From Bacteroidetes bacterium GWB2_32_14 (lineage in GTDB: Bacteria > Bacteroidota > Bacteroidia > Bacteroidales > UBA12077), in assembly GCA_001768235.1 (NCBI GenBank), contig MENK01000030.1, forward strand, positions 1-36,365: a DNA stretch of 36,365 nt, in the 5' to 3' direction. Each line of letters starts with the position of its first letter. Position 1 is the first letter of the stretch. A model generated the notes under the pieces. That model was not told the DNA's origin, did no database searches, and worked only from the letters and a program-made list of their open reading frames with translations. The position numbers and the translations under genes were made by a program. Positions 2,897-28,847 of this stretch are shown here, piece after piece.

Positions 2897-4567
2897 TTAT
2901 ATAAATGACTTTAGGTATTCATACAAATCGGCTTCTTTCTTAAGGTTCAGCTTTTTTCTCAATCGTTGCCTGTTCTTGTTTATTGTACTGTCTGATAAAG
3001 ATAAAATTCCGGCAATTTCATGTGATGAAAGTTTTAAAATTAGCAAGGCACAGAGGTCTAACTCATTTTTAGTTAAATCGGGATGTCCAATTGTTAACTT
3101 GGGCAAGAAGTTTGGATATAAGTTTTGGAAATCCAATAAAACTTTTTGCCTGTTTTTTGTAGTATCAATATTTGAGTTTATTATTCCAACAAGTTCTTTT
3201 TGGTTTTTTCCATTGGAGATATCATTTTTTAGTATTTTTAAAATATCGTTTTTCTCAATATTATATGCCAGCGATTGTGCTAATTCTTTGTTTTTACTTT
3301 CAAATAGCATTTTGAGTCTTTCTGTTTCCAGAACTTCCAGTTCGTGACTTTGCTTTAAGTTCCTTCTTTTCATTAAAAAGAAAAGTACTGTAATTATTAA
3401 TGTTATTAGCGATATGATTAATATAATACTTAAATATCTGATGTCTTTTTTTTGTAAATCTATTTTGTGTTGATTTTTATTTATTTCGGTTTCCTTTAAT
3501 GCTAAATTATATTTAGCAGACATTTCATTTACCTTTTCGTCCATGATAGATTCGAAAATTTGTTTTTCAAGTAATCTGCCAATTGATAAAAACTCATACG
3601 CTTTATAATAATCGTTTAATAAATTGTGCGACTTAGCTAACTGCAAATATATTCGCATGAATACATCCTCATTTTCATTAATATCCAATAAATCAATTAC
3701 TTCGTACAAACATTCTGTAGCCTTTTTTAATTCATTGCGCCTGATATGAATATCGCTTAGTATGATTGATGTGTTCATTGCATTTCGGTATAAGCCTGCT
3801 TTCATAAAATTATCAAATGCCATAGAACAATAATACTCAGATAATTCCAAATCCATAGATGTCAAACGATACAATGAACCTAATTCGTTTTGTGATAACC
3901 CTAATAAATAATAAAAATGATATTTTTCAGAAATTGTTAATGACAGTTCAGAATATTTTTTAATGGAATCGACCCGTTGTTTGAAAGTAAGTTCGGGCAG
4001 TACATCATATATTGCAGCTATTCTATTATATGCATATGCTCTGTTAAAAGGAGTTAATTTTGGTTTTTGTAAGATATTTTTTAATAATTCTTTTGCTTTA
4101 CGAAATTCTAAATTTATACGTAAGCCTTCACATATTTTGATGTTTAAATAATCCAACAAGCTGTCAGGAATAGTATTGTCGTATTTATTTATATAGTTAT
4201 ATAATATGGGCAATCCTTTTGAAGCATAACCATGATCTATATATTCTATCCCTTTCTCAAAATTTGAATCAGCATAAAGACTGCTATCTATTGAGTTTGT
4301 GCCTGTTTTAATTAGTTTATTTTTTAATGCCTGAGTATAAGATTTAGATTTTAAGTAGTTTAACTTGGCTTTTTGTACATGATCCAAATTTTTCATTTGA
4401 CTCAAAGTGCTTATACAGGACTCGGAAATATTAATATCGATACGTGTATTAGATACCCCATACATGTATAAGCTATCAAACTCATTTATATGTTGACAAA
4501 AAATATTTTGTGAAGTAAAATAGATTATCCCTAGTAGGTATGATCGTAATAATAATTTATTCTTCAT
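2897..4567 (-). CDS. Membrane-anchored TPR regulator with a LuxR/GerE-like helix-turn-helix tail
   Basis: The ATG at 4567 gives 556 residues. Five further upstream codons would require a TTG start, so this ATG is preferred. The N-terminus is a signal sequence (LLLRSYLLGIIYF) ending near a Cys. The middle 330 residues are helical and look like degenerate TPRs. One membrane span (YLSIILIISLITLIITVLFF) follows, then a charged coiled-coil-like stretch. The last 60 residues form a LuxR/GerE-type DNA-binding domain (LTKNELDLCALLILKLSSHEIA, then SDSTINKNRQRLRKKL). Sensors with periplasmic TPRs and a cytoplasmic helix-turn-helix are common in Bacteroidota and act without a phosphorelay. The gene lies just upstream of, and on the same strand as, the secreted hydrolase gene, so it may control it. 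That link is inference from position. Confidence 0.8.
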   Translation of the reverse strand: MKNKLLLRSYLLGIIYFTSQNIFCQHINEFDSLYMYGVSNTRIDINISESCISTLSQMKNLDHVQKAKLNYLKSKSYTQALKNKLIKTGTNSIDSSLYADSNFEKGIEYIDHGYASKGLPILYNYINKYDNTIPDSLLDYLNIKICEGLRINLEFRKAKELLKNILQKPKLTPFNRAYAYNRIAAIYDVLPELTFKQRVDSIKKYSELSLTISEKYHFYYLLGLSQNELGSLYRLTSMDLELSEYYCSMAFDNFMKAGLYRNAMNTSIILSDIHIRRNELKKATECLYEVIDLLDINENEDVFMRIYLQLAKSHNLLNDYYKAYEFLSIGRLLEKQIFESIMDEKVNEMSAKYNLALKETEINKNQHKIDLQKKDIRYLSIILIISLITLIITVLFFLMKRRNLKQSHELEVLETERLKMLFESKNKELAQSLAYNIEKNDILKILKNDISNGKNQKELVGIINSNIDTTKNRQKVLLDFQNLYPNFLPKLTIGHPDLTKNELDLCALLILKLSSHEIAGILSLSDSTINKNRQRLRKKLNLKKEADLYEYLKSFI

Positions 4568-4736: not shown

Positions 4737-5744
4737 TTATTCAACTTCTTCAATGATTTCATCTATCCCCGGGGTAGATTTAACATTAAAACGTCCTTCC
4801 TTATCACTGTAAACAAAATAAGCTTCAAGTTCGGGATGCTGGTCAATCAGCTCAATACTATTTTCTAATCCTAACACCATAAATGCAGTTGCAAAAGCAT
4901 CGGCTGTCATACAATCATTTGCAATAACTGTTACACAAAGCAGCGAATGGTTTACAGGATACCCGGTTTGGGGATTGATGGTATGCGAATATTTTACTCC
5001 ATCCTGCTCGTAAAATTTCCTGTAGTTACCCGATGTGGCAAGCGATTTGTTTGTTAAATGAACGATTGCCTGTAGATTTTCACCTGGCGAGTTATTGTTA
5101 TCAACAGGTTTGTCGATTCCTATTTTCCAGGCTTCTTTTTTAGGATTTAATCCCAGTGTACGAACTTCACCACCAATTTCAACAAGGTAGTTTTCAATAT
5201 TTTGTTTTTCAAGAAATCCGGCAACTACATCCACGGCATAGCCTTGAGCAATGGCATTCATGTCTATTTTTATTCGTGGGTCGTCTTTTATAATAGAATC
5301 GTTTTCGAGTTTTACTTTATTGTATCCTACAAATTCGAGAATACTGTCGATTTTAGCCTGAGTAATCTGTTCTTTTTTAGTAAATCCAAATCCCCAGGCA
5401 TTTACAAGAGGGCCAACGGTTACATCGAATGCCCCATTTGTTAATTTTGAGATTTCCTGTGCACTGGTAAATACAGTTTTTAAGTAATCATCGGTACGAT
5501 TTGATATATTGCTGTTAATGGCTGTAATAACCGAAAGTTTGTTATATGTAGAAAGAGAAGTATCAAATTCTGCAAGAAGGGTCTCGATTTCAGGCTGGTA
5601 ATTCTTCTTATCTGGCGAATCGTAAGTTATGCTATAAGTTGTACCCTGGGTAAACCCCATGATATTAATATAGTCCTCATTGGTATTGTTTTTACACGAA
5701 ACGAGAATGATTCCGGCGAAAAAATAAAGAAGCAGACTTCTCAT
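4737..5744 (-). CDS. apbE: FAD:protein FMN transferase ApbE (lipoprotein)
   Basis: This enzyme transfers FMN from FAD to a threonine of target proteins outside the cytoplasmic membrane; NqrB and NqrC are its classic substrates. The 335 residues are the usual length. A lipoprotein signal ends in L-V-S-C17, so it should be anchored on the periplasmic side. Family motifs run in order: FDVTVGPLVNAWGFG (106-120), the flavin/Mg region IDMNAIAQGYAVD (160-172), SGNYRKFYEQDGVKYSHTIN (238-257, within the S-G-x-Y...H-x-I-x-P signature) and TADAFATAFMVLG (280-292). It is transcribed toward the left and separated from nqrF by one gene on the opposite strand. The nqr operon nearby carries both flavinylation motifs, so those subunits are the probable targets. 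Confidence 0.95.
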   Translation of the reverse strand: MRSLLLYFFAGIILVSCKNNTNEDYINIMGFTQGTTYSITYDSPDKKNYQPEIETLLAEFDTSLSTYNKLSVITAINSNISNRTDDYLKTVFTSAQEISKLTNGAFDVTVGPLVNAWGFGFTKKEQITQAKIDSILEFVGYNKVKLENDSIIKDDPRIKIDMNAIAQGYAVDVVAGFLEKQNIENYLVEIGGEVRTLGLNPKKEAWKIGIDKPVDNNNSPGENLQAIVHLTNKSLATSGNYRKFYEQDGVKYSHTINPQTGYPVNHSLLCVTVIANDCMTADAFATAFMVLGLENSIELIDQHPELEAYFVYSDKEGRFNVKSTPGIDEIIEEVE

Positions 5745-5775
5745 GATAAAGAATTTATTTGGTTTATTTACCCGG

Positions 5776-5783
5776 CAAATTTA
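5776..5783 (-). promoter_or_regulatory. Candidate -7 box TAAATTTG for apbE
   Basis: The minus strand reads TAAATTTG (TAnnTTTG consensus), 32 bases ahead of the apbE ATG at 5744. The identical octamer precedes nqrA at 13415-13422. No convincing -33 TTG is seen. Confidence 0.35.
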
Positions 5784-5849
5784 ATAAGTTCTTATTATTG
5801 ATTCTAAAATTATTCAGATTTTATAACTTTAGCTTTTTAAAAGAGAGAT

Positions 5850-7274
5850 ATGAGAAAAATTTTTACCCTGCAATTCCTGATAGCGTTTTTATTTATTTCA
5901 AATTTAATGGCACATCCATGGAAACCCGATCACTATGTTATTATTGATACTGACTGTGGGTTGGATGATTTCAGGCTTATAAACTTAATGTTAGAATCGC
6001 AAAATATTCGTGTGCTTGCAATAATTACTTCAAATGGTGTTGTAAATGCAAAGGATGGGTATTTAAAAGTAAAAAACTTACTAAAATCAACCCATCATGA
6101 GGGAATTTTAACAGGAGCCAACCTGAACACGGAATCACTTGCGATAGATTGCAAAGTTGCAAAAGATTTTACATGGGGAAATGAGCTTACGCGGGATGAT
6201 TCATCAATCGTATTATTTACTGATGTTTTAAACAGGGTTTTTAAAAATTGTAACGAGAAAATTATTTTTATAAACCTGGGTAGCTTAAATACAATAAGCA
6301 ATTATTTGAAAGAATCTCCTGAATACACTGGAAAGATCAGAGAAGTTTTATGGACATGCAACTTTAATATGCTAAAAGAAAGTTATAACTATAAGGCAGA
6401 TACAAATTCATACAATTCTTTTATCGGGTTAAATATTCCGCTTACCATAACAAATGCTGAAACTATTGGCAAATATAACAGTGTAATTATTGATGATATT
6501 AAATGTATGAATACTCAACTTGGCAACGAATTATATAAAAGCCTTTCTGTTCCAAATACAACTTTCTCAGGAAGTTTTCACGATGAATCCGTTCTACTTT
6601 ATTTATTAAAACCTGAACTTTTCACCTACTCAAAATCAGGAAATATAAATAACCTTAAATTGTTGCCAGTTACCGATTTTAATAGGATTCTTAAAGATTT
6701 GTTTTTTACTAACTCGGTTAGCAGAACCCAGGTTCTATCGGGTATTTCTGTTGATTCATCTGATTATTTTCAGGATGTTCAAGCCATAATGGAATCAACA
6801 ATTAAAAATTATGGTAACGATGAGTGGTCAGTATGTGTATTAACAAGCGAACTACACAGGCATCTTGGAGTATATTCAATAATTGGGGCAAAAATGGGGG
6901 TGCGGGCAAGAGAATATTTTGGTGCCGGGGTTGATGAACTCAGGATTGTTTCTCTTGCAGGATTGGAGCCACCATTTAGTTGCCTGAATGATGGTTTACA
7001 GGTTAGCACAGGGGCAACGCTTGGCCAGGGTTTGATCTCGGTTAATGAAAATCTAAAATTGCCAAAAGCCGAATTTCACTATTTAAACCAGAAAATTTCA
7101 ATAACTCTTAAAGATGAATATAGAGTTAAAATTGCTGACGAAATTAAGGAGTTAAGTTTTATATATGGCTTAGATAGTTCTGTTTATTGGGATTTAGTCA
7201 GGAAAATTGCTTTACGTTATTGGAAAGACTGGAGCAGGTATGAAATTTTCGATATTGAAGTTCAGAAAAATTAA
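5850..7274 (+). CDS. Exported nucleoside-hydrolase-like / FmdE-like fusion protein
   Basis: The product has 474 residues. MRKIFTLQFLIAFLFISNLM-A is a signal peptide, so the protein is probably periplasmic. Residues about 27-300 belong to the inosine/uridine nucleoside hydrolase superfamily. The calcium-binding signature D33-T-D35-C-G-L-D39-D40 is present, and H244-D245 matches the C-terminal His-Asp pair. Residues about 325-450 resemble FmdE (formylmethanofuran dehydrogenase subunit E family). H336-R-H338-L-G aligns with the H-G-H-x-C-P-G motif and DGLQVSTGATLGQG (381-394) with D-A-I-Q-x-x-x-G-C-T. Both family cysteines are replaced, by G340 and A389. Neighbours are apbE (divergent) and nqrF (convergent). 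The function is unknown. A hydrolase with a metal- or pterin-related ligand domain, perhaps linked to the molybdenum/tungsten genes in this window, is a guess. Confidence 0.75.
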   Translation: MRKIFTLQFLIAFLFISNLMAHPWKPDHYVIIDTDCGLDDFRLINLMLESQNIRVLAIITSNGVVNAKDGYLKVKNLLKSTHHEGILTGANLNTESLAIDCKVAKDFTWGNELTRDDSSIVLFTDVLNRVFKNCNEKIIFINLGSLNTISNYLKESPEYTGKIREVLWTCNFNMLKESYNYKADTNSYNSFIGLNIPLTITNAETIGKYNSVIIDDIKCMNTQLGNELYKSLSVPNTTFSGSFHDESVLLYLLKPELFTYSKSGNINNLKLLPVTDFNRILKDLFFTNSVSRTQVLSGISVDSSDYFQDVQAIMESTIKNYGNDEWSVCVLTSELHRHLGVYSIIGAKMGVRAREYFGAGVDELRIVSLAGLEPPFSCLNDGLQVSTGATLGQGLISVNENLKLPKAEFHYLNQKISITLKDEYRVKIADEIKELSFIYGLDSSVYWDLVRKIALRYWKDWSRYEIFDIEVQKN

Positions 7275-14582: not shown

Positions 14583-15638
14583 CTATTCGTTAAATTTTAC
14601 CGAAGTTGCTTTAAAGCTTAGGCAGATTTCTGAACCTTCGGTAATGTTCAGTTTTTCGAGCGAAGAACGTGTAATCTCTGCAATTATATCAACACCAATA
14701 TCAATAACAACATCAATTCCTGTTCGTGAAGGGATAATTTCTTTCACTTTTCCTTTAAAATTATTTAACGCGGTAGAGTCAATTTCAGCATTTGACAGGA
14801 ATATTTCATTGGCACCAATCATAACAGCTCCTTCACAATCAGCACAACCTGTTGAAATAAAGAAGCTTACTTTATCACTTATTTGAGCTGTTTTATATTT
14901 TTCAGATTCATTTGAAAAGAGTTTCGCGTGAAAAAAATTCTTTATTCCAACAAATTCAGCAACAAAATCCGATTTGGGATGATGGAAAACATCATCGGTT
15001 TTTCCTTCCTGAACAATTGTGCCATTATGCATTACAGCAACCCTGTTCGATAATGAAATAGCTTCTTCGTAATCATGTGTAACATGAATAATTGTTTGCC
15101 CTTTGTTGTTTATTTTGCGAAGTAAAGAACGCATTTCTCTTTTTAATTGTACATCTAGCGAAGATAAAGGCTCGTCGAGCAAAAGAATTTCCGGCTCAAG
15201 GGCCAAAGTTCTGGATAAAACAGTGCGTTGAAGTTCTCCTCCAGACAATGTTCCCGGATATCTTTTCAGGAGATGTTTTATGTTTGTTGTTTCTGCCAGC
15301 TTCTCAATTTTATTTTTTAATTCTTCTTTTGAAAATCCTTTGTTTTTTAATGGATAAGCAATATTTTCAAAAACGGTCATATGTGGAAAAACAGCTAAAT
15401 CCTGAAATACAAGGCCTAGTTTTCTGTCCTGAATACGCTGATTAGTAATATTCGCATTGTTTAAATAAATATTTCCTTTATCAGGATGTATTAAGCCTGC
15501 AATGATTTCGAGTAGTATGGACTTTCCTGCTCCTGAAACTCCCAACAAAACAAAATAATCGGATGGATTAACCGTGAAGCTGATGTCTTTTATGGAGAAC
15601 TCGTTAAAATGTTTCGATATGTTTTTAATTTCCAGCAT
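14583..15638 (-). CDS. wtpC: Tungstate/molybdate ABC transporter ATP-binding protein
   Basis: The ATPase of an oxyanion importer, 351 residues. Walker A is GVSGAGKS (33-40), the ABC signature LSGGE (131-135), Walker B ILLLDEP (151-157) and the switch His is H188. The C-terminal third (about 230-351) is a TOBE-like domain, which in ModC/WtpC-type proteins binds oxyanion. It contains a C-A-D-C pair that I cannot assign to the family. The start overlaps the end of the permease gene by 14 bases, so the two are translationally coupled. The adjacent WtpA-type binding protein makes wtpC a better name than modC. No strong terminator follows; only a short ATCC-TTCG-GGAT hairpin lies just past the stop. 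Confidence 0.88.
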   Translation of the reverse strand: MLEIKNISKHFNEFSIKDISFTVNPSDYFVLLGVSGAGKSILLEIIAGLIHPDKGNIYLNNANITNQRIQDRKLGLVFQDLAVFPHMTVFENIAYPLKNKGFSKEELKNKIEKLAETTNIKHLLKRYPGTLSGGELQRTVLSRTLALEPEILLLDEPLSSLDVQLKREMRSLLRKINNKGQTIIHVTHDYEEAISLSNRVAVMHNGTIVQEGKTDDVFHHPKSDFVAEFVGIKNFFHAKLFSNESEKYKTAQISDKVSFFISTGCADCEGAVMIGANEIFLSNAEIDSTALNNFKGKVKEIIPSRTGIDVVIDIGVDIIAEITRSSLEKLNITEGSEICLSFKATSVKFNE

Positions 15639-16410
15639 TTTTTTGTTTTGATAAAAGTCTGAGAATAATAAAAAAGAGTAAGCTCACGGTAATAAAAATA
15701 ACAGAAACCGGGCGGGCGTATTTTAAACCGAAAGCTCCAAATCGTTCGTAAATAAGCACTGATGTAACCATTGGATAATATGCAACTATAACCACGGCAC
15801 CAAATTCGCTCATTCCGCGTGCAAACATCATAATAAAACCAGAAATAATGCTCCGCCATGCCAGAGGCAACGAAATGGTGAAAAAAACTCTTGCAGGTGA
15901 CGCCCCCAGGTTGAGAGCAGCTTTTTCCAATCGTTCAGGAACAGCTTCGAATCCGTCACGGGCAGCATTTATTAAAAAGGGTAAACTTACAAAAGCCATG
16001 GCGGCAGCTATTCCTGCCGGATTCCCGATAAAATTTAGTCCGACGGTTGCTGCTGCTGAACCTACAACACTATCACGCGAGAGAAATCCAAGTATGGCAA
16101 TCCCCGCGGCTGCGTGTGGAATAACCACGGGTAAATCGATAATTCCCAAAACAAGTTGTTTCATCAGGAACTTCTTGCGTGCAAGTAAATACGCTAATGG
16201 AATTGAAAAAATTGAAAATACAAATGTCCCGGCAAATGAAACCCATAGAGTTAACCAAATACTTCCTGCAACCTGATTATCGTTAATCGTTGAAAACAAA
16301 TCGTTGGGAGTAGTATGTATAAACATGCCAATAAGCGGAGCAATTATGAAAAGCAAAACAAGCCCGCCTAAAAAAATCATGATCAATTGTAAACTTCCAA
16401 ATTTTTTCAA
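15625..16410 (-). CDS. wtpB: Tungstate/molybdate ABC transporter permease
   Basis: An inner-membrane permease of 261 residues with five to six spans. The cytoplasmic EAA loop that docks the ATPase is clear: EKAALNLGASPARVFFTISL, followed by PLAW. The MSEFGAVVIVAYYP stretch near the C-terminus is typical of ModB/WtpB/CysT-type permeases. It starts 6 bases after the wtpA stop and overlaps wtpC by 14 bases, so the three genes form one operon. Substrate assignment rests on the binding protein. Confidence 0.88.
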   Translation of the reverse strand: MKKFGSLQLIMIFLGGLVLLFIIAPLIGMFIHTTPNDLFSTINDNQVAGSIWLTLWVSFAGTFVFSIFSIPLAYLLARKKFLMKQLVLGIIDLPVVIPHAAAGIAILGFLSRDSVVGSAAATVGLNFIGNPAGIAAAMAFVSLPFLINAARDGFEAVPERLEKAALNLGASPARVFFTISLPLAWRSIISGFIMMFARGMSEFGAVVIVAYYPMVTSVLIYERFGAFGLKYARPVSVIFITVSLLFFIILRLLSKQKNAGN

Positions 16411-16416
16411 AACAAA

Positions 16417-17361
16417 TTATTTTAATTCATCAGGAATATCAATACTAAATACAGGCTGGCCATTTCGTTCCATAATTTTTAAACCACCATCCTTACTTAA
16501 AAGAAACTTTAGAAACACTTTTGCTGTAGCTTTATTAGGGGCATTGGTAAGAAGAGTAACTCCATAAATCATTGCTTCACCTTTCATAGTTGTTTTCTCA
16601 CCGGGAGTTTTTCCTGCAATATCTGTTGTGGCTGTTGTATAGCTGTTTTCAAATTCCGGATTTTTTAAATTTATTTCATCAGGCAACAGGATATACTTTA
16701 AATGATGTTGCTCGGCAACAGAACGATACAGGAAAATGTAATCTACCGTGTTGGTTTCGAGCAATGCGATTAAATCGGTTTCTTTAGGGCGGATATATTT
16801 TTTATCTTTATTTATAAGAATTTCTGCCAGATTATTTATTTTATAATAATTTTCTGCCAACTTGATTGTAAAAATTGATCGATAACCACAGGGATCAGAA
16901 TCAGGATCGGATCGCCCATAAATAACATCGTTTTTCAACAAGACTTCGTGCCAGTTTTGCTGGTTAATTTCATTTGAATATTTTGATTTCTCGGTATAAA
17001 CAATAGCCATTTCATTTGCCGCAAATTTTAAATTATACGATGTAAAATCAGGAATCAGTATTTTGTCTATAACCTTGTAATCGGCAGATGCCATGATATC
17101 GCAAGGACGGTTTAAATCGGTAATTTTCCTGGCACAATCTACACTTCCTGATGCTTCAAGAATAATATTCACATCAGGGTAAATTGTTTTAAAACTGTCG
17201 GCAATTTGTTTAAACGGGACAGATAAACTCCCGGCATGAAAAATGATTAAATCGCCAGAGAGTGTATTTTCTTTCTCCAAATTCTGTTGTTGTTTATTCG
17301 TACAACTTTGAAGTTGCAGGAGCAGGTATGCAATGAATAAAAAGCGAAATATGTTTTTCAT
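16417..17361 (-). CDS. wtpA: Tungstate/molybdate-binding lipoprotein
   Basis: The substrate-binding subunit. The ATG at 17361 gives 314 residues with a lipoprotein signal ending L-Q-S-C20. The longer reading needs a TTG start inside the likely promoter. WtpA-type motifs, distinct from classical ModA, are visible: FHAGSLSVPF, EASGSVDCARKITDL and GRSDPDSDPCGYRS, plus VDYIFLYRSVAEQHHLKYI-like sequence later. Archaeal WtpA/ModA proteins of this group bind tungstate and molybdate with very high affinity and extra carboxylate ligands. Whether this one prefers W cannot be read here. The gene is divergent from the DHOD-like gene at 17494. Clients in the window are the formate dehydrogenase and the mobA/mogA cofactor genes. 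Confidence 0.9.
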   Translation of the reverse strand: MKNIFRFLFIAYLLLQLQSCTNKQQQNLEKENTLSGDLIIFHAGSLSVPFKQIADSFKTIYPDVNIILEASGSVDCARKITDLNRPCDIMASADYKVIDKILIPDFTSYNLKFAANEMAIVYTEKSKYSNEINQQNWHEVLLKNDVIYGRSDPDSDPCGYRSIFTIKLAENYYKINNLAEILINKDKKYIRPKETDLIALLETNTVDYIFLYRSVAEQHHLKYILLPDEINLKNPEFENSYTTATTDIAGKTPGEKTTMKGEAMIYGVTLLTNAPNKATAKVFLKFLLSKDGGLKIMERNGQPVFSIDIPDELK

Positions 17362-17388
17362 ATAATCGATATTTATAAAATAGTAAAA

Positions 17389-17396
17389 CAAAAATA
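17389..17396 (-). promoter_or_regulatory. Candidate -7 box TATTTTTG for wtpABC
   Basis: The minus strand reads TATTTTTG 28 bases ahead of the wtpA ATG at 17361. It overlaps the only alternative (TTG) start, which supports the shorter protein. I saw no convincing ModE-type palindrome nearby. Confidence 0.4.
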
Positions 17397-24318: not shown

Positions 24319-27042
24319 TTATATTTTTTCCACTTTGCAGGCAGTTAGTTTAAAAGCGGCAATGCGTGAAAACGGGTCCAGGTCGCTTCGTGTAAGCCTG
24401 TTTACAGGTGATTCTGAATAATGCCAGGGCATAAATAATTCTCCATCGGCAACCTGATCGCTCACATTAAGCGTTGTTTCCAGTTTACCTTGTTTTGATG
24501 ATACTCTTACTTTCTCGCCATCAATAAAGCCAAACTTAACAGCATCTCCGGGATTCATTAAAACATAAGATTCGTTTGCAAAATCGGTAAGTGATTTGTT
24601 TTTTCGCGACATGGTAGCTGTATGATAGTGATATAAAATTCGCCCGCTATTTAAAACAAATGGAAATTCATTCGATGCTTGCTCCGATTGTGGAATATAT
24701 TGAACTGGATTTAATTTGGCTTTCCCGTTGGGAGTATTAAACTTCTCCAAAAATAAAGTGCTTGTTCCGGGATGATCTTTTGTTGGACAGGGCCATTGAA
24801 TTCCCTGTTTTTCAATCCTGTTGTACGAAATTCCTGCCATCATGGGGGCTGCTTGTGCAATCTCATCAAAAATTTCAGCAGCATTTGTATATTTTCCAAT
24901 GTTATACCCCATTTTTTCAGCAATAGCTACAACTATTTTCCAGTCTTCGCGGGCTTCTCCGGGTAATTCAACTGCTTTTCGAACGCGTAAAACACGCCGG
25001 TCGGAATTAACAAATGTCCCGTCTTTTTCGGCAAACGATGATGCTGGTAAAATAACATCGGCATATGGTGTGGTTTCGGTATGAAATATATCCTGTACAA
25101 CCAGAAAACCAAGTTTCTTAATGGCATGTTCTGTATGATTCAAATCAGGATCGGTGAGCATGGGATTTTCACCCATGATATACAATGCTTTAATTTTCCC
25201 TTCATGTGCGGCATGCATAATTTCAACGGTGGTTAATCCAGGTTTTGCTGACAGGTTTTCATACGGGATATTCCAGATTTTGGCAACACGCTTTCGGTTT
25301 TCATCATTAATAACAGGAATATAACCCGGATAAAAAACAGGCGAACAACCAACGTCAGTAGCTCCCTGAACATTATTTTGTCCACGAGGGGGATCGATTC
25401 CGGCACGTTCTTTTCCTATTTGACCAGTGATAAGCATCATGTTTATTAAAGCAAAAACATTGTTTGTTCCAGTAACTTGCTGGCTCATTCCCATGCCGGT
25501 TGCAATCATTGATGTTTCGGCAGTTGCATACATTCTGGCTGCAGCAATTAATTTATCCTTAGGTACAGAAGTAATTTCTTCAGTTTTTTCAGGAGTACAA
25601 TCTTTTACCAGGTTTTTTAATTCATAAAATGCTTCCATGCTACCATCAACACGGTTTTTTATAAAGTCTTGTTTTATTAAATCTTCTTTAATAATAATAT
25701 GAATCATACCATTAAGTAAAGCTACATCGGTTCCTAGCCTGGGTTGCAGCCATATATCAGCATAACGAACCAATGGAGTCCATTTGGGGTCGCAAACAAT
25801 TAGCTTTTGTCCTTTGTATTTCCCATTTTTTACATAAGTTGCTGTTACCGGATGGGTTTCAATCATATTATTTCCTGTAACAAACAGGCAATCGGTTGTT
25901 GCAAAATCTTCAATGGAGTTGCTGCCTGCTCCGTCACCAATAGATTTTAACATAGCAGTTACTGTTGATGCATGGCATAAACGGGTGCAATAATCAATAT
26001 TGTTTGTGCCAAATACCTGGCGGGTAAACTTCTGAAAAATATAATTGTCTTCGTTGGTACATTTTGCCGAAGCATACCCGGCTAAAGCATCATTGCCATA
26101 TTTTTGTTTAATTTCTAAAAATTTACTTGCAATAAGATGAAGAGCTTCATCCCATTCAGCTTCAACAAATTCCCCGTTTTTTTTAATCAGAGGTTTTGTT
26201 AATCGTTTAGGACTGCTGACAAAATCGTATCCAAAACGGCCTTTGACACAAAGGCGGCCGTTGTTTGGCAAAATACCTTCAACTCCGTTTGATCTGACAA
26301 TTTTTCCATCCTGAATATACAATTCGAGCTGACAACCTACACCACAGTATGGACAGGTAGTGCGGACTTTTTTTTCGATTTTCTCTAATTGGATTTCTTG
26401 CCGGTGTGGTTTTTCAACCAATGCTCCTGTCGGGCAAAGCTGAACACATTCGCCACAACCGTCGCATTCCGATTCGTTCCATTTATCGAGTCCTGCAATA
26501 ATGTATGAGGTAATACCCCGCTCTGAAAATGACAATACGTTTTTACCCTGTATTTCGTCGCAACCTTTTATACATCGGAAGCATTTTATGCATTTTGTAG
26601 CATCATAAGTTAGAATAGGAGAGCTGTCGTCGGTTTTATAATTTAGTTCTTTGTTAATATTCAAATATTTCCGGTTTTTAGGATCATCTAATCCATACAG
26701 TTTAACCCACTCACGAAACTCATCAATATAAGCCCCATCGTAAATCCCGTTATGCTCAGCCAGTAAATAATCAAGTGTATGTTTTCGGGTTTCTTCCAGT
26801 TCATTATCAAATGCAATAACTTCCATTCCTTCTTTTACGGATACTGTGCACGACATAACCAGCCCGTTTGTACCGTTTATTTTTGTAACACATAACCTGC
26901 ATGCCCCGGTCGGAGTAAGTTTTTTATGATAGCATAAGCTGGGAATATGTATTTCATTATCATGAGCTACTTGCAAGAGGTTTGAACCTTCAGTAGTTTG
27001 TATTATTTTTCCATCAATTTTTATTGTAATTATTTTGCTCAT
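24319..27042 (-). CDS. fdhA: NAD-dependent formate dehydrogenase catalytic subunit (Mo/W-bis-MGD)
   Basis: A 907-residue enzyme oxidising formate to CO2. An N-terminal ferredoxin domain binds [2Fe-2S] (C37, C48, C51, C65). Two ferredoxin-type 4Fe-4S sites follow (C151-C161 and C193-C203 clusters). C230, C233, C237 and C265 bind the 4Fe-4S next to the active site, with K268 in CVKGRFG. The metal ligand is C356 in R-L-C-H-A-S. The codon is TGC, so it is not a selenoprotein. The C-terminal MopB domain is complete, including GQIGKERAGIDPPRGQNNVQ. Oddity: where relatives carry a His-Cys3 cluster motif after the ferredoxin domain, this protein reads LLAEH97NGIYDGAYIDEF with no Cys. It is third in an operon with NuoF- and NuoE-like subunits, 10 bases after the former. 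Confidence 0.92.
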   Translation of the reverse strand: MSKIITIKIDGKIIQTTEGSNLLQVAHDNEIHIPSLCYHKKLTPTGACRLCVTKINGTNGLVMSCTVSVKEGMEVIAFDNELEETRKHTLDYLLAEHNGIYDGAYIDEFREWVKLYGLDDPKNRKYLNINKELNYKTDDSSPILTYDATKCIKCFRCIKGCDEIQGKNVLSFSERGITSYIIAGLDKWNESECDGCGECVQLCPTGALVEKPHRQEIQLEKIEKKVRTTCPYCGVGCQLELYIQDGKIVRSNGVEGILPNNGRLCVKGRFGYDFVSSPKRLTKPLIKKNGEFVEAEWDEALHLIASKFLEIKQKYGNDALAGYASAKCTNEDNYIFQKFTRQVFGTNNIDYCTRLCHASTVTAMLKSIGDGAGSNSIEDFATTDCLFVTGNNMIETHPVTATYVKNGKYKGQKLIVCDPKWTPLVRYADIWLQPRLGTDVALLNGMIHIIIKEDLIKQDFIKNRVDGSMEAFYELKNLVKDCTPEKTEEITSVPKDKLIAAARMYATAETSMIATGMGMSQQVTGTNNVFALINMMLITGQIGKERAGIDPPRGQNNVQGATDVGCSPVFYPGYIPVINDENRKRVAKIWNIPYENLSAKPGLTTVEIMHAAHEGKIKALYIMGENPMLTDPDLNHTEHAIKKLGFLVVQDIFHTETTPYADVILPASSFAEKDGTFVNSDRRVLRVRKAVELPGEAREDWKIVVAIAEKMGYNIGKYTNAAEIFDEIAQAAPMMAGISYNRIEKQGIQWPCPTKDHPGTSTLFLEKFNTPNGKAKLNPVQYIPQSEQASNEFPFVLNSGRILYHYHTATMSRKNKSLTDFANESYVLMNPGDAVKFGFIDGEKVRVSSKQGKLETTLNVSDQVADGELFMPWHYSESPVNRLTRSDLDPFSRIAAFKLTACKVEKI

Positions 27043-27052
27043 TGCTTTTCTT

Positions 27053-28297
27053 TTAAAATTGATCGTTAAAAAACTGGTTAATACTTCGAATTGGTATAAT
27101 GGGTGATTGGCCTAAAGGGCAAAGAGAAGATTTTGCCATGTATTCAGCTTCATAAAGCAATTTTTCGAGTATTGTTTTTCTTTCAGACACTGTTTTTTTT
27201 GAATCACTCATGATTAGTAAAAGTTGTGATGTTCCAATTCTGCATGGTACACATTTACCACATGATTCGTGTTTAAAAAACTCAAGGATTGAATGTAACA
27301 TATCGAAAAGAGAACGTTCTTCGCTCATTACCATTATTGCTCCAGAGCCTAATACAGCCCCTTTTTCTTTTAATGTATCAAATCCAATTGGAGTTTCCAT
27401 CACTGATTCGTCAACAAAAGTACCTGCAGCCCCTCCAATAAGGACAGCTTTAATTTTTTTATTGTTTTTTACTCCACCAGCAAGATCCCTTATAAGTTGG
27501 CGAAGAGTAACACCAAGAGCTGTTTCGTAATATCCCGGTTTATTTACGTCGCCACTAATTGTAAATATTTTTGTTCCCGGAGTGTTTGCTGTGCCTATTG
27601 ATTTGTAATGCTCAGCACCATATTCAATAATGTATGGAATATGAGCAAATGTTTCCACATTATTTATCAGTGTAGGCATTCCAAACAATCCTTTTTCAGC
27701 AGGGAAAGGTGGTTTTATTCTGGGGTAACCACGTTTCCCTTCGAGCGATTCAAGTAGTGTAAGCTCCTCTCCACATAAGTAAGAACCTGCACCTAATTTT
27801 ATCTCCAAATCAAGGTCAAACCCGCTTTCAAAAATATTTTTCCCTAATAATCCATTCTGATATGCTTGTTCTAAAGCATTTCGAACAATTTTAATTGAAT
27901 CTGTATATTCTCCCCTGATATAAATAAAACCTTTGGTAGCACCAATAGCATATGCGGCAATCAGCATTCCTTCAATTAATACATGAGGGTCTTGTTCCAT
28001 AATTACCCGGTCTTTAAATGTTCCGGGCTCACCTTCATCGGCATTGCAAACAATATATTTTTGAATACACCGGTTGCATACCGATTCATTTGTAAATTTT
28101 TCCTTCAATCCGGTTGGAAATCCTGCTCCGCCACGGCCACGTAATTTGGAATCGATTAATAAATCAATTATTTCTGAAGGATTAAGTTTATATGCTTTTT
28201 TAACATTCTTGTATCCTCCGGTTGATAAGTAATTATTAATATTTTCGGGATTATATTTCCCCGCGTTTTTTAAGGCAATTCGTTTTTCTGATATCAC
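27053..28297 (-). CDS. Formate dehydrogenase NADH-binding subunit (NuoF/HydB-like)
   Basis: A 414-residue diaphorase subunit carrying FMN, the NAD(H) site and one 4Fe-4S cluster. LRGRGGAGFPTGLK (52-65) is the NADH/FMN glycine-rich loop. CNADEGEPGTFKDR (84-97) and GAGSYLCGEELTLLESLEG further on are family signatures. C346, C349, C352 and C393 ligate the cluster (SCGKCVPCR...LCPLGQS). It lacks the extra N-terminal thioredoxin-like and C-terminal ferredoxin domains of HydB, so it resembles FdsB. It lies 2 bases after the NuoE-like gene. Whether the complex also bifurcates to ferredoxin cannot be decided here. Confidence 0.92.
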   Translation of the reverse strand: MISEKRIALKNAGKYNPENINNYLSTGGYKNVKKAYKLNPSEIIDLLIDSKLRGRGGAGFPTGLKEKFTNESVCNRCIQKYIVCNADEGEPGTFKDRVIMEQDPHVLIEGMLIAAYAIGATKGFIYIRGEYTDSIKIVRNALEQAYQNGLLGKNIFESGFDLDLEIKLGAGSYLCGEELTLLESLEGKRGYPRIKPPFPAEKGLFGMPTLINNVETFAHIPYIIEYGAEHYKSIGTANTPGTKIFTISGDVNKPGYYETALGVTLRQLIRDLAGGVKNNKKIKAVLIGGAAGTFVDESVMETPIGFDTLKEKGAVLGSGAIMVMSEERSLFDMLHSILEFFKHESCGKCVPCRIGTSQLLLIMSDSKKTVSERKTILEKLLYEAEYMAKSSLCPLGQSPIIPIRSINQFFNDQF

Positions 28298-28299
28298 GG

Positions 28300-28770
28300 T
28301 TATTTTATATTTTGTTCGTCGAAACGAATGGTTTGAAGAATATTCTTAATTTTCTCTTTATCAAGAGCAGTAAAGGTTTTATCATTAATCATTAAAACAG
28401 GAGATTTTGCACAACGTCCAAGACATTCGGTTTCTTCAACTGAGAATAGTTTATCAGGCGATGTTTCTCCCGGCTTTATTTCAAGTGAATTTTCAATTTC
28501 CTGTAAAATTTCTTTGTTCCCAATCATGTGGCACATGGGTGATTTGCATACACGAATAACATATTTGCCCCGAGGTTTCAAACTAAACATGGTGTAATAT
28601 TTTGCAACGCCATAAACCGAACTGTAAGTAATATTTAAGTAGTTGGCAACCAATTTTATATCGTCGGATGTTAAAAAATTTTGTGGATTGTTATTCTGCA
28701 AAACATGCAATATATTGAGCATGTTTTCTTTTCTGGGTTCGAATGTTTTTATAAGTAGCTTGTTATCCAT
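28300..28770 (-). CDS. Formate dehydrogenase 2Fe-2S subunit (NuoE/FdsG-like)
   Basis: A thioredoxin-like [2Fe-2S] subunit that passes electrons between the diaphorase and the catalytic subunit. The ATG at 28770 (MDNKLLIKTFEP) gives 156 residues, the usual length. An in-frame ATG at 28803 would add 11 residues but sits almost on a near-consensus TATATTTC box (28808-28815). Counting from 28803, the ligands are C86, C91, C127 and C131 in the C-x4-C...C-x3-C pattern. The helical N-terminus (LVANYLNITYSSVYGVAKYY) is standard. It is the first gene of the three-gene formate dehydrogenase operon. Confidence 0.9.
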   Translation of the reverse strand: MDNKLLIKTFEPRKENMLNILHVLQNNNPQNFLTSDDIKLVANYLNITYSSVYGVAKYYTMFSLKPRGKYVIRVCKSPMCHMIGNKEILQEIENSLEIKPGETSPDKLFSVEETECLGRCAKSPVLMINDKTFTALDKEKIKNILQTIRFDEQNIK

Positions 28771-28847
28771 TTTTCTTTTTTTGGTTCTATAAATATAAAG
28801 CATGTATCGAAATATATCAATATATAGAGATAATATAGATTGATTTT

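Follow-up and report, generated by a model that had tools for sequence, protein, structure and literature searches.

Introduction

Proteins of the FmdE family (PF02663) are named after a molybdenum operon and, to our knowledge, have been assigned no function since their structures appeared in 2010. The metal ligands of the solved proteins are His15, His17, Cys19 and Cys55, followed by Asp58, Gln61 and Thr67 (Axelrod et al., 2010; PMC2954224). The same report describes one FmdE protein that bound zinc and nickel at 2.6:1 and a Syntrophus protein (3d00) without two of the ligands, and its authors state that most FmdE genes adjoin genes for metal-ion transporters. Judged by titles and the opening lines of abstracts, it is the only one of the open-access FmdE/PF02663 papers surveyed that bears on the domain. 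Nor did any open-access paper in our literature search bring "nucleoside hydrolase" and FmdE together.

The IU nucleoside hydrolases (PF01156; RihA 3g5i, RihC 8qnd, Leishmania IUnH 5tsq) have a common fold with a DTDxxxDD calcium motif, the Asn of an xxN motif and a late Asp. Beyond the calcium, we take the ribose contacts to be N39, N160 and E166 of the Crithidia enzyme. NikR-controlled nickel uptake, as in the NikMNQO and NikABCDE systems and with the TonB-dependent nickel receptors known in Helicobacter, relies on the NikR regulator and its operator, an outer-membrane receptor and an inner-membrane permease. For delta-proteobacteria, Rodionov et al. (2004; PMC545781) describe the NikR site GTGTTAC-N13/14-GTAACAC and, in one species, a version with reversed half-sites.

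Here we compare with these systems a gene of Bacteroidetes bacterium GWB2_32_14 (Bacteroidales) that encodes a nucleoside-hydrolase-like domain fused to an FmdE domain. The gene lies in a window of 36,365 nucleotides (contig MENK01000030.1), the whole stretch of DNA that was analysed. Its relatives make it fairly probable that proteins of this family handle nickel in the cell envelope.

Results and Discussion

An exported fusion of two domains

The fusion gene stands alone between apbE and the nqr operon. Its features, in window positions, are as follows.

4737 to 5744, minus strand: apbE (flavin transferase family; PF02424, E = 3e-88), the divergent neighbour, given as context only
5745 to 5849, no strand: intergenic stretch between the fusion gene and divergent apbE, without a NikR-type site
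5850 to 7274, plus strand: nucleoside-hydrolase-like/FmdE fusion, 474 aa; a single gene with apbE and nqrF on either side
5850 to 5912, plus strand: signal peptide, residues 1-21, read from the sequence; helix over residues 2-17 in the model
5913 to 5915, plus strand: H22, predicted N-terminal histidine of the mature protein and candidate metal ligand; His in 75/85 aligned
5937 to 6635, plus strand: nucleoside-hydrolase-like domain, residues 30-262 (PF01156, PDB profile search, Foldseek match 3g5i)
5946 to 5969, plus strand: D33-T-D35-C-G-L-D39-D40, calcium/diol motif; aspartates kept in 84, 84, 84 and 85 of 85
6387 to 6389, plus strand: N180, which we take to be N168 of Crithidia IUNH; 85/85 (PDB profile alignment)
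6579 to 6584, plus strand: H244-D245; D245 in 81/85, H244 in 1/85
6852 to 7265, plus strand: FmdE domain, residues 335-472 (Pfam match 335-403; PF02663, model against 2gvi/2glz/3d00)
6855 to 6863, plus strand: H336-x-H338, FmdE metal ligands 1 and 2 (identity from PMC2954224); 84/85 and 82/85
6867 to 6869, plus strand: G340, replacing the third ligand (Cys19 of Desulfitobacterium FmdE); Gly in 82/85
6981 to 6983, plus strand: C378, the FmdE ligand Cys55, kept in 82/85 and followed by D381, Q384 and T390 (spacing from PMC2954224)
7386 to 8642, minus strand: nqrF, the convergent neighbour, a context common to L019-L022

The fusion is real by both sequence and fold. Both Pfam domains exceed their curated cut-offs (PF01156 on residues 30-262, E = 2.1e-11, 44.5 bits against 34.2; PF02663 on residues 335-403, E = 2.5e-10, 40.9 bits against 22.9), and Foldseek finds both hydrolases and FmdE structures. 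A full-length model from 54 aligned homologues (alignment A2, with rows chosen by hand and L002, L039, L088 and L090 omitted) reached a mean pLDDT of 90.3; its top Foldseek matches were RihA-type nucleoside hydrolases (3g5i, E = 1.5e-13). A separate model of residues 300-474 (pLDDT 92.5) matched the three solved FmdE proteins, 2gvi (E = 1.7e-8), 2glz (two chains) and 3d00, and nothing beyond them at E <= 0.001. The preliminary description, made from the sequence alone, had read the frame at 5850 to 7274 as an exported nucleoside-hydrolase/FmdE fusion and had suggested domain searches and structure prediction; both bear out the fusion, with the FmdE fold modelled confidently.

By inspection, the N-terminus also reads as the signal peptide named in that description. 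Cleavage after A21 would leave His22 as the first mature residue, and the N-termini of most homologues likewise run ...A/HPWKP or ...A/HSGK directly after the hydrophobic stretch. We counted such a histidine by eye in 78 of 95 N-termini; L095, L098, L160 and L161 have several histidines in its place, and L022, with NikR beside the fusion, has Gln. A free N-terminal histidine on the mature protein would be a good metal chelator.

The fusion is the sole PF02663 match in its genome. The family occurs in 5 of the 19 other genomes of the genus, four of which keep the gene at 53-59% identity, and its absence from most of these relatives (14/19) makes the fusion dispensable in the genus. Across the phylum, an even draw of 395 genomes held the FmdE subfamily of the fusion in only two, the window's own and G458.

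The putative ligand sites

Residues were counted in the 85 proteins of at least 430 aa among 92 non-duplicate homologues, the 7 shorter ones having been dropped. Like the IU nucleoside hydrolases, the hydrolase half has the fold, the calcium aspartates, the Asn of the xxN motif and the late Asp; unlike them, it is exported and fused, it is changed at the positions of the AEFN glutamate, N39 and M152, and the His before the late Asp is not conserved in its family. H244, at the catalytic-His position of IU nucleoside hydrolases, is a histidine in the window copy only (1/85). The position of the AEFN glutamate, which we take to be E166 in Crithidia numbering, is S178 in the window copy and Glu in 0/85 homologues by profile alignment to solved hydrolases. 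Position 64, presumably N39 of IUNH, is Asn in 0/85, and position 169 (that of M152) is Met in 0/85, just after the invariant W168; the N160 equivalent falls in a shortened loop, where its assignment is uncertain. The protein exceeds the PF01156 cut-off and has the hydrolase fold and the calcium aspartates; the ribose contacts E166 and N39 are changed in 85/85. The D33-T-D35-x3-D39-D40 and H244-D245 motifs had been described as the full calcium/ribose ligand set. Both motifs are there and the calcium half of the claim stands, but the ribose set is incomplete.

The published spacings of the FmdE ligands (PMC2954224) map onto H336, H338, G340, C378, D381, Q384 and T390 of the fusion. With the FmdE family (2glz, 2gvi, 3d00) the fusion has in common the fold, the HxH motif, the Cys55 equivalent and the second motif of Asp, Gln and Thr. 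It is unlike the solved proteins in having Gly for Cys19, in lacking a zinc-finger tail, in being secreted and in sitting behind a hydrolase domain. Because Gly fills position 340 in 82/85 homologues, G340 is a family trait and not decay. Given the constancy of H336 (84/85), H338 (82/85) and C378 (82/85), the alignment shows a site with three conserved ligands and a fourth position left open. It has three of the full set of four FmdE ligands (His, His, Cys, Cys), and the missing fourth is no bar to membership, since 3d00 lacks two. This description suits the site better than the earlier one of a degenerate site with both family cysteines replaced, at G340 and A389. H336, H338, G340 and A389 are as then given, but A389 is not at a ligand position, Cys55 persists as C378 and Cys19 alone has been replaced.

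The FmdE half is better conserved than the hydrolase half (mean pairwise identity 51% against 32%). L013, L014 and L016, all of the window's family, have no C378 and carry N at position 245; two of the three are also missing one His of the HxH motif or the pair. This joint loss of C378 and D245 hints that the two sites may work together; the three proteins form a single clade and count as one observation.

Gene neighbourhoods

The preliminary description had linked the fusion to molybdenum and tungsten genes, of which wtpC, fdhA and mobA lie 7, 17 and 27 kb from it in the window. Across 112 homologous loci (about 1.5 Mb; blastp, 1e-10), WtpA was found in 1 and a WtpC-like protein in 4 (25-30% identity), and WtpB, FdhA, MobA and MoCF in 0/112. 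The search reached at most 10 kb from the gene and in many loci less, a distance that takes in only wtpCBA in the window. In the same search the nearest relatives had only ApbE and NqrF in common with the window. With co-location nearly nil over this distance, the Mo/W link was dropped; what survives of the earlier proposal is a metal-linked role, the metal suggested by the neighbours being nickel.

The recurrent partners of the family are nikR, one subfamily of TonB-dependent receptors and a small PF13386 permease with the motif GPDHYLPF. The NikR encoded beside the fusion matches NikR_C (PF08753) at E = 8e-32 in L079 and 6.1e-22 in L060, and the NCBIfam NikR model at 164 bits against a cut-off of 105. 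The permease belongs to PF13386 by Pfam and has no NCBIfam match; we regard it as a putative nickel permease from its context and from the GPDHYLPF-type motif, which we take as a mark of nickel permeases. The genes occur in the orders nikR-receptor-fusion-permease (L079/L162, L159), nikR-permease-receptor-fusion (L060), receptor-permease-fusion (L031, L032, L041) and nikR-fusion-permease (L039, with one ORF between, and L160), and the fusion is presumably co-transcribed with its partner genes. These loci resemble NikR-controlled nickel uptake in regulator, operator, receptor and permease. They differ from the known systems in that the soluble component is the fusion or FmdE alone, the permease is of the PF13386 type and the annotated loci hold no ABC transporter. 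In Odoribacter laneus the receptor and fusion genes are followed, in the same orientation, by a gene of the choloylglycine-hydrolase family (L087:11583-12659, plus strand).

Among 105 non-redundant loci, NikR was encoded within 5 kb in 13, the receptor in 20, the permease in 11 and at least one of them in 26. A gene that joins a NapC/NirT cytochrome domain to an FGE-sulfatase domain (NapC-FGE) was present in 39/105, and no locus had both NapC-FGE and nickel-type partners. Of these loci, L019-L098 are the best 80 of 269 and lean to the window's nearer kin, and L158-L177 represent 20 of 33 even-draw genomes. Because the latter include all 7 genomes with NikR nearby, 13/105 is not an unbiased rate; that rate is 7/33. 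Dropped before counting were L001-L005 and L007 (which repeat the places of other loci), L018, six duplicates and L088 (no ORF called).

The even draw comprised 198 genomes of the order, the window's included, with the family or part of it in 33 and NikR in 44 (three barely over the cut-off). Both were present in 16 genomes (Fisher p = 2.1e-4), and in 7 of these, or 7 of 33 loci, the family gene and nikR lie no more than 2.3 kb apart. NikR, receptor or permease was encoded within 5 kb at 12 of the 33 loci (NikR at 7; receptor or permease without NikR at 5); of the rest, 1 is beside hyp genes, 1 beside NapC-FGE and 19, some on short contigs, are without tracked partners. At nikR loci without the fusion nearby, a permease of the same subfamily was found within 5 kb in 11/33 and the receptor in 8/33.

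The two halves also occur singly in such surroundings. In L158 the ORF behind nikR and the receptor gene encodes FmdE alone (200 aa, no evident signal peptide), and in L164 its place is taken by the hydrolase alone (297 aa); the hydrolase half of L163 is without the calcium motif and below Pfam detection. The hydrolase half, degenerate or missing in some members, is not always needed. L218, from G458 (another class of the phylum), has nikR, an exported-looking FmdE-only protein and the receptor. In L225 (G167), an FmdE-only protein without a signal peptide is encoded 27 bases before hypF, followed by hypB, with hypC, hypD, hypE and a [NiFe] hydrogenase opposite. In L158, L159 and L160 (the last by blastp), [NiFe]-hydrogenase genes are found no more than 4 kb from the operon; the best NCBIfam match of the L158 hydrogenase is VhuA, below cut-off, and a maturation protease is also present. 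In our reading FmdE is the putative core that binds nickel, to which the hydrolase half was added as a module that may handle the ligand. A count of hydrogenase co-occurrence over the 198 genomes was discarded, as weak PF00374 matches may be complex I subunits. In L177 the ORF of a 408-aa radical SAM protein (3234-4457, plus strand) overlaps the start of an FmdE-only ORF. In L018 (1501-1908, plus strand; genome G046) a broken-frame FmdE fragment beside a permease gene marks a chimeric contig or a decaying second copy.

NikR-type operators

Upstream regions were scanned for the published delta-proteobacterial NikR consensus or its reverse, with at most 2 mismatches in 14 (PMC545781). Of the 26 nickel-type loci, scanned at 79 regions, 14 have a NikR-type site ahead of the fusion gene or of a gene for NikR, the receptor or the permease. 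Markov shuffling of those regions gave 0.15 regions with a site. With about one region scanned per locus, sites were found in 0/39 NapC-FGE loci and 0/40 other loci; the shuffle is the fair control, since the nickel-type loci contributed 79 regions and the two other groups 40 and 41. Two perfect pairs in L091 led us to the published consensus, so that this locus, one of the 14, is not independent of the choice of motif.

The site preceding the receptor gene of L060 (position 7865) is perfect. The fusion gene itself is preceded by a site in only 1 of the 26 nickel-type loci (L091) and in 0/39 and 0/40 of the other groups. Because the sites precede the partner genes, NikR would control the fusion only through co-transcription with them, and in L090 the receptor gene that bears the site runs opposite in strand to the fusion. 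Sites also precede receptor or permease genes without nikR nearby (L024, L029, L041, L089, L090, L165), which argues that receptor and permease themselves belong to the NikR regulon. The window has no NikR-type site in 5600-5910 even at 3 mismatches. Other motifs were set aside: neither E. coli-type half-sites nor an unconstrained inverted-repeat search gave anything in common among the loci, and GTGTTA-N14-18-TAACAC at up to 2 mismatches was in no excess (184 matches against 333-351 in shuffles).

Descent of the window gene

In a quick-method tree of 103 rows (long branches: L172, L163, L175, L173 and L034), nickel contexts appear on both sides of the midpoint, including that of an Ignavibacteria MAG (L039). 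The NapC-FGE context is restricted to one clade of 45 rows, which includes the nikR-permease-receptor member L060. The window gene groups with L019-L021 (SH-aLRT 99) and then with L022 (98), in which nikR, receptor and fusion adjoin nqrF. This grouping makes the window gene look like a member that lost its nickel operon, and none of the nickel-type neighbours accompany it today. In the window's genome (98.95% complete) we found no NikR, [NiFe] hydrogenase or LarA, and no CODH, the prismane protein there being a hydroxylamine reductase. Receptor and permease had no match in that genome either, a weak result obtained with one relative's query each and no positive control.

The NapC-FGE gene is divergent from the fusion in L038 (7345-8865, minus strand) and 38 further loci; at 24 of these a GFO/IDH/MocA gene lies no more than 5 kb from the fusion, and many have genes for AP_endonuc_2 and lactonase. 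In L070 (11307-13640, plus strand) and 9 further loci, the next gene downstream of the fusion, in the same orientation, encodes a GH20 hexosaminidase.

A candidate nickel route and its alternatives

If the family handles nickel, the TonB-dependent receptor would carry a nickel chelate over the outer membrane. The fusion, secreted to the periplasm, would hold nickel at the FmdE site (H336, H338, C378 and the open position), perhaps assisted by its free N-terminal histidine. The hydrolase-like domain would grip the diol-bearing organic part of the chelate via the calcium site and may cleave it. The metal would then be handed to the small inner-membrane permease of the same operon, which NikR would close once nickel suffices. 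We infer both the binding of nickel by the fusion and the action of its hydrolase half on the chelator; from its relatives, the window copy would keep the nickel role. Weakening the nickel reading are the 19 of 33 even-draw loci without tracked partners, the 39 of 105 loci that have NapC-FGE instead, the near lack of NikR-type sites before the fusion gene itself, the excess of zinc over nickel in the solved FmdE protein, the rarity of the gene in the window's genus and the negative searches for NikR and nickel enzymes in the window's genome.

Of the other readings, the one with most in its favour concerns the window copy, which may be a relic or, once NikR and the receptor had gone from its lineage, have been turned to another metal such as zinc or cobalt. 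We hold this possible but doubtful. It would account for a genome without detected NikR, [NiFe] hydrogenase, LarA, CODH or related receptor and permease, and for the 14 of 19 genomes of the genus without the gene; the solved FmdE protein, as reported, binds mainly zinc (PMC2954224). Yet the ORF is intact, it keeps H22, the Asp set, N180, D245, H336, H338 and C378, and four genomes of the genus retain the gene. It is unlikely, on the other hand, that the family is an exported nucleoside hydrolase scavenging ordinary nucleosides, with FmdE as a structural or dimer partner and the nickel neighbours incidental. The near-invariant calcium aspartates, N180 and D245 and the match to RihA-type folds would suit such an enzyme, but not the loss of the N39, M152 and E166 equivalents in 85/85, a catalytic-His position that varies freely, the better conservation of the FmdE half, NikR-type sites before the partner genes or the occurrence of FmdE without a hydrolase in the same context.

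The remaining two readings turn on other neighbours. A redox or sugar pathway with NapC-FGE, GFO/IDH oxidoreductase and AP_endonuc_2 proteins, from which nickel operons borrowed the fusion, could explain why NapC-FGE recurs in 39 of 105 loci, in 38 of these 39 directly upstream on the opposite strand. That orientation also means that the two genes are divergent and not co-transcribed; moreover, the context is confined to the 45-row clade that also holds L060, nickel contexts stand on both sides of the tree, and genome G135 has the NapC-FGE context plus a separate nikR-receptor pair, all of which leaves the pathway a rather improbable home for the family. Least probable is the earlier proposal of a fusion that acts on nucleotide cofactors of the molybdopterin type and goes with the window's wtpABC, formate dehydrogenase, mobA-like and MoCF genes. 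The name of FmdE and this company speak for it, against the absence or near absence of Mo/W genes within reach of 112 homologous loci.

Within the nickel reading, one version makes the hydrolase half cut a ribosylated nickel ligand, such as a nucleoside or nucleotide nickelophore or the LarA-family nickel-pincer nucleotide, the metal passing to the FmdE half. We think such a chelator-breaking step has only a small chance of being right. The hydrolase half has lost residues that hold the ribose 5'-hydroxyl in nucleoside hydrolases, and their loss would fit a ligand modified at the 5' position. The nickel-pincer link through LarA is weak: LarA occurred in 9 of 33 even-draw genomes with the family and in 23 of 165 without (p = 0.056), and the window genome has none. 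If the step is real, the metal would be freed from its carrier in an unusual manner, by a hydrolase fold coupled to a metal-binding domain. More broadly, FmdE domains with or without the hydrolase half turn up in receptor operons of the NikR type and next to hyp genes, so that a role of the family in nickel handling can be put to the test; gut and sediment Bacteroidales gain a candidate nickel route that may feed hydrogenases.

Molybdenum and tungsten genes of the window

The window is rich in Mo/W genes, as the preliminary description had noted. WtpA and the formate dehydrogenase alpha subunit exceed their NCBIfam cut-offs; WtpC and MobA are best matches below theirs. WtpA belongs to a tungstate-type transporter encoded at 14583-17391. 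The formate dehydrogenase, whose alpha subunit is encoded with NuoE/NuoF-type subunits at 24319-28803, is likely W- or Mo-dependent and NAD-linked.
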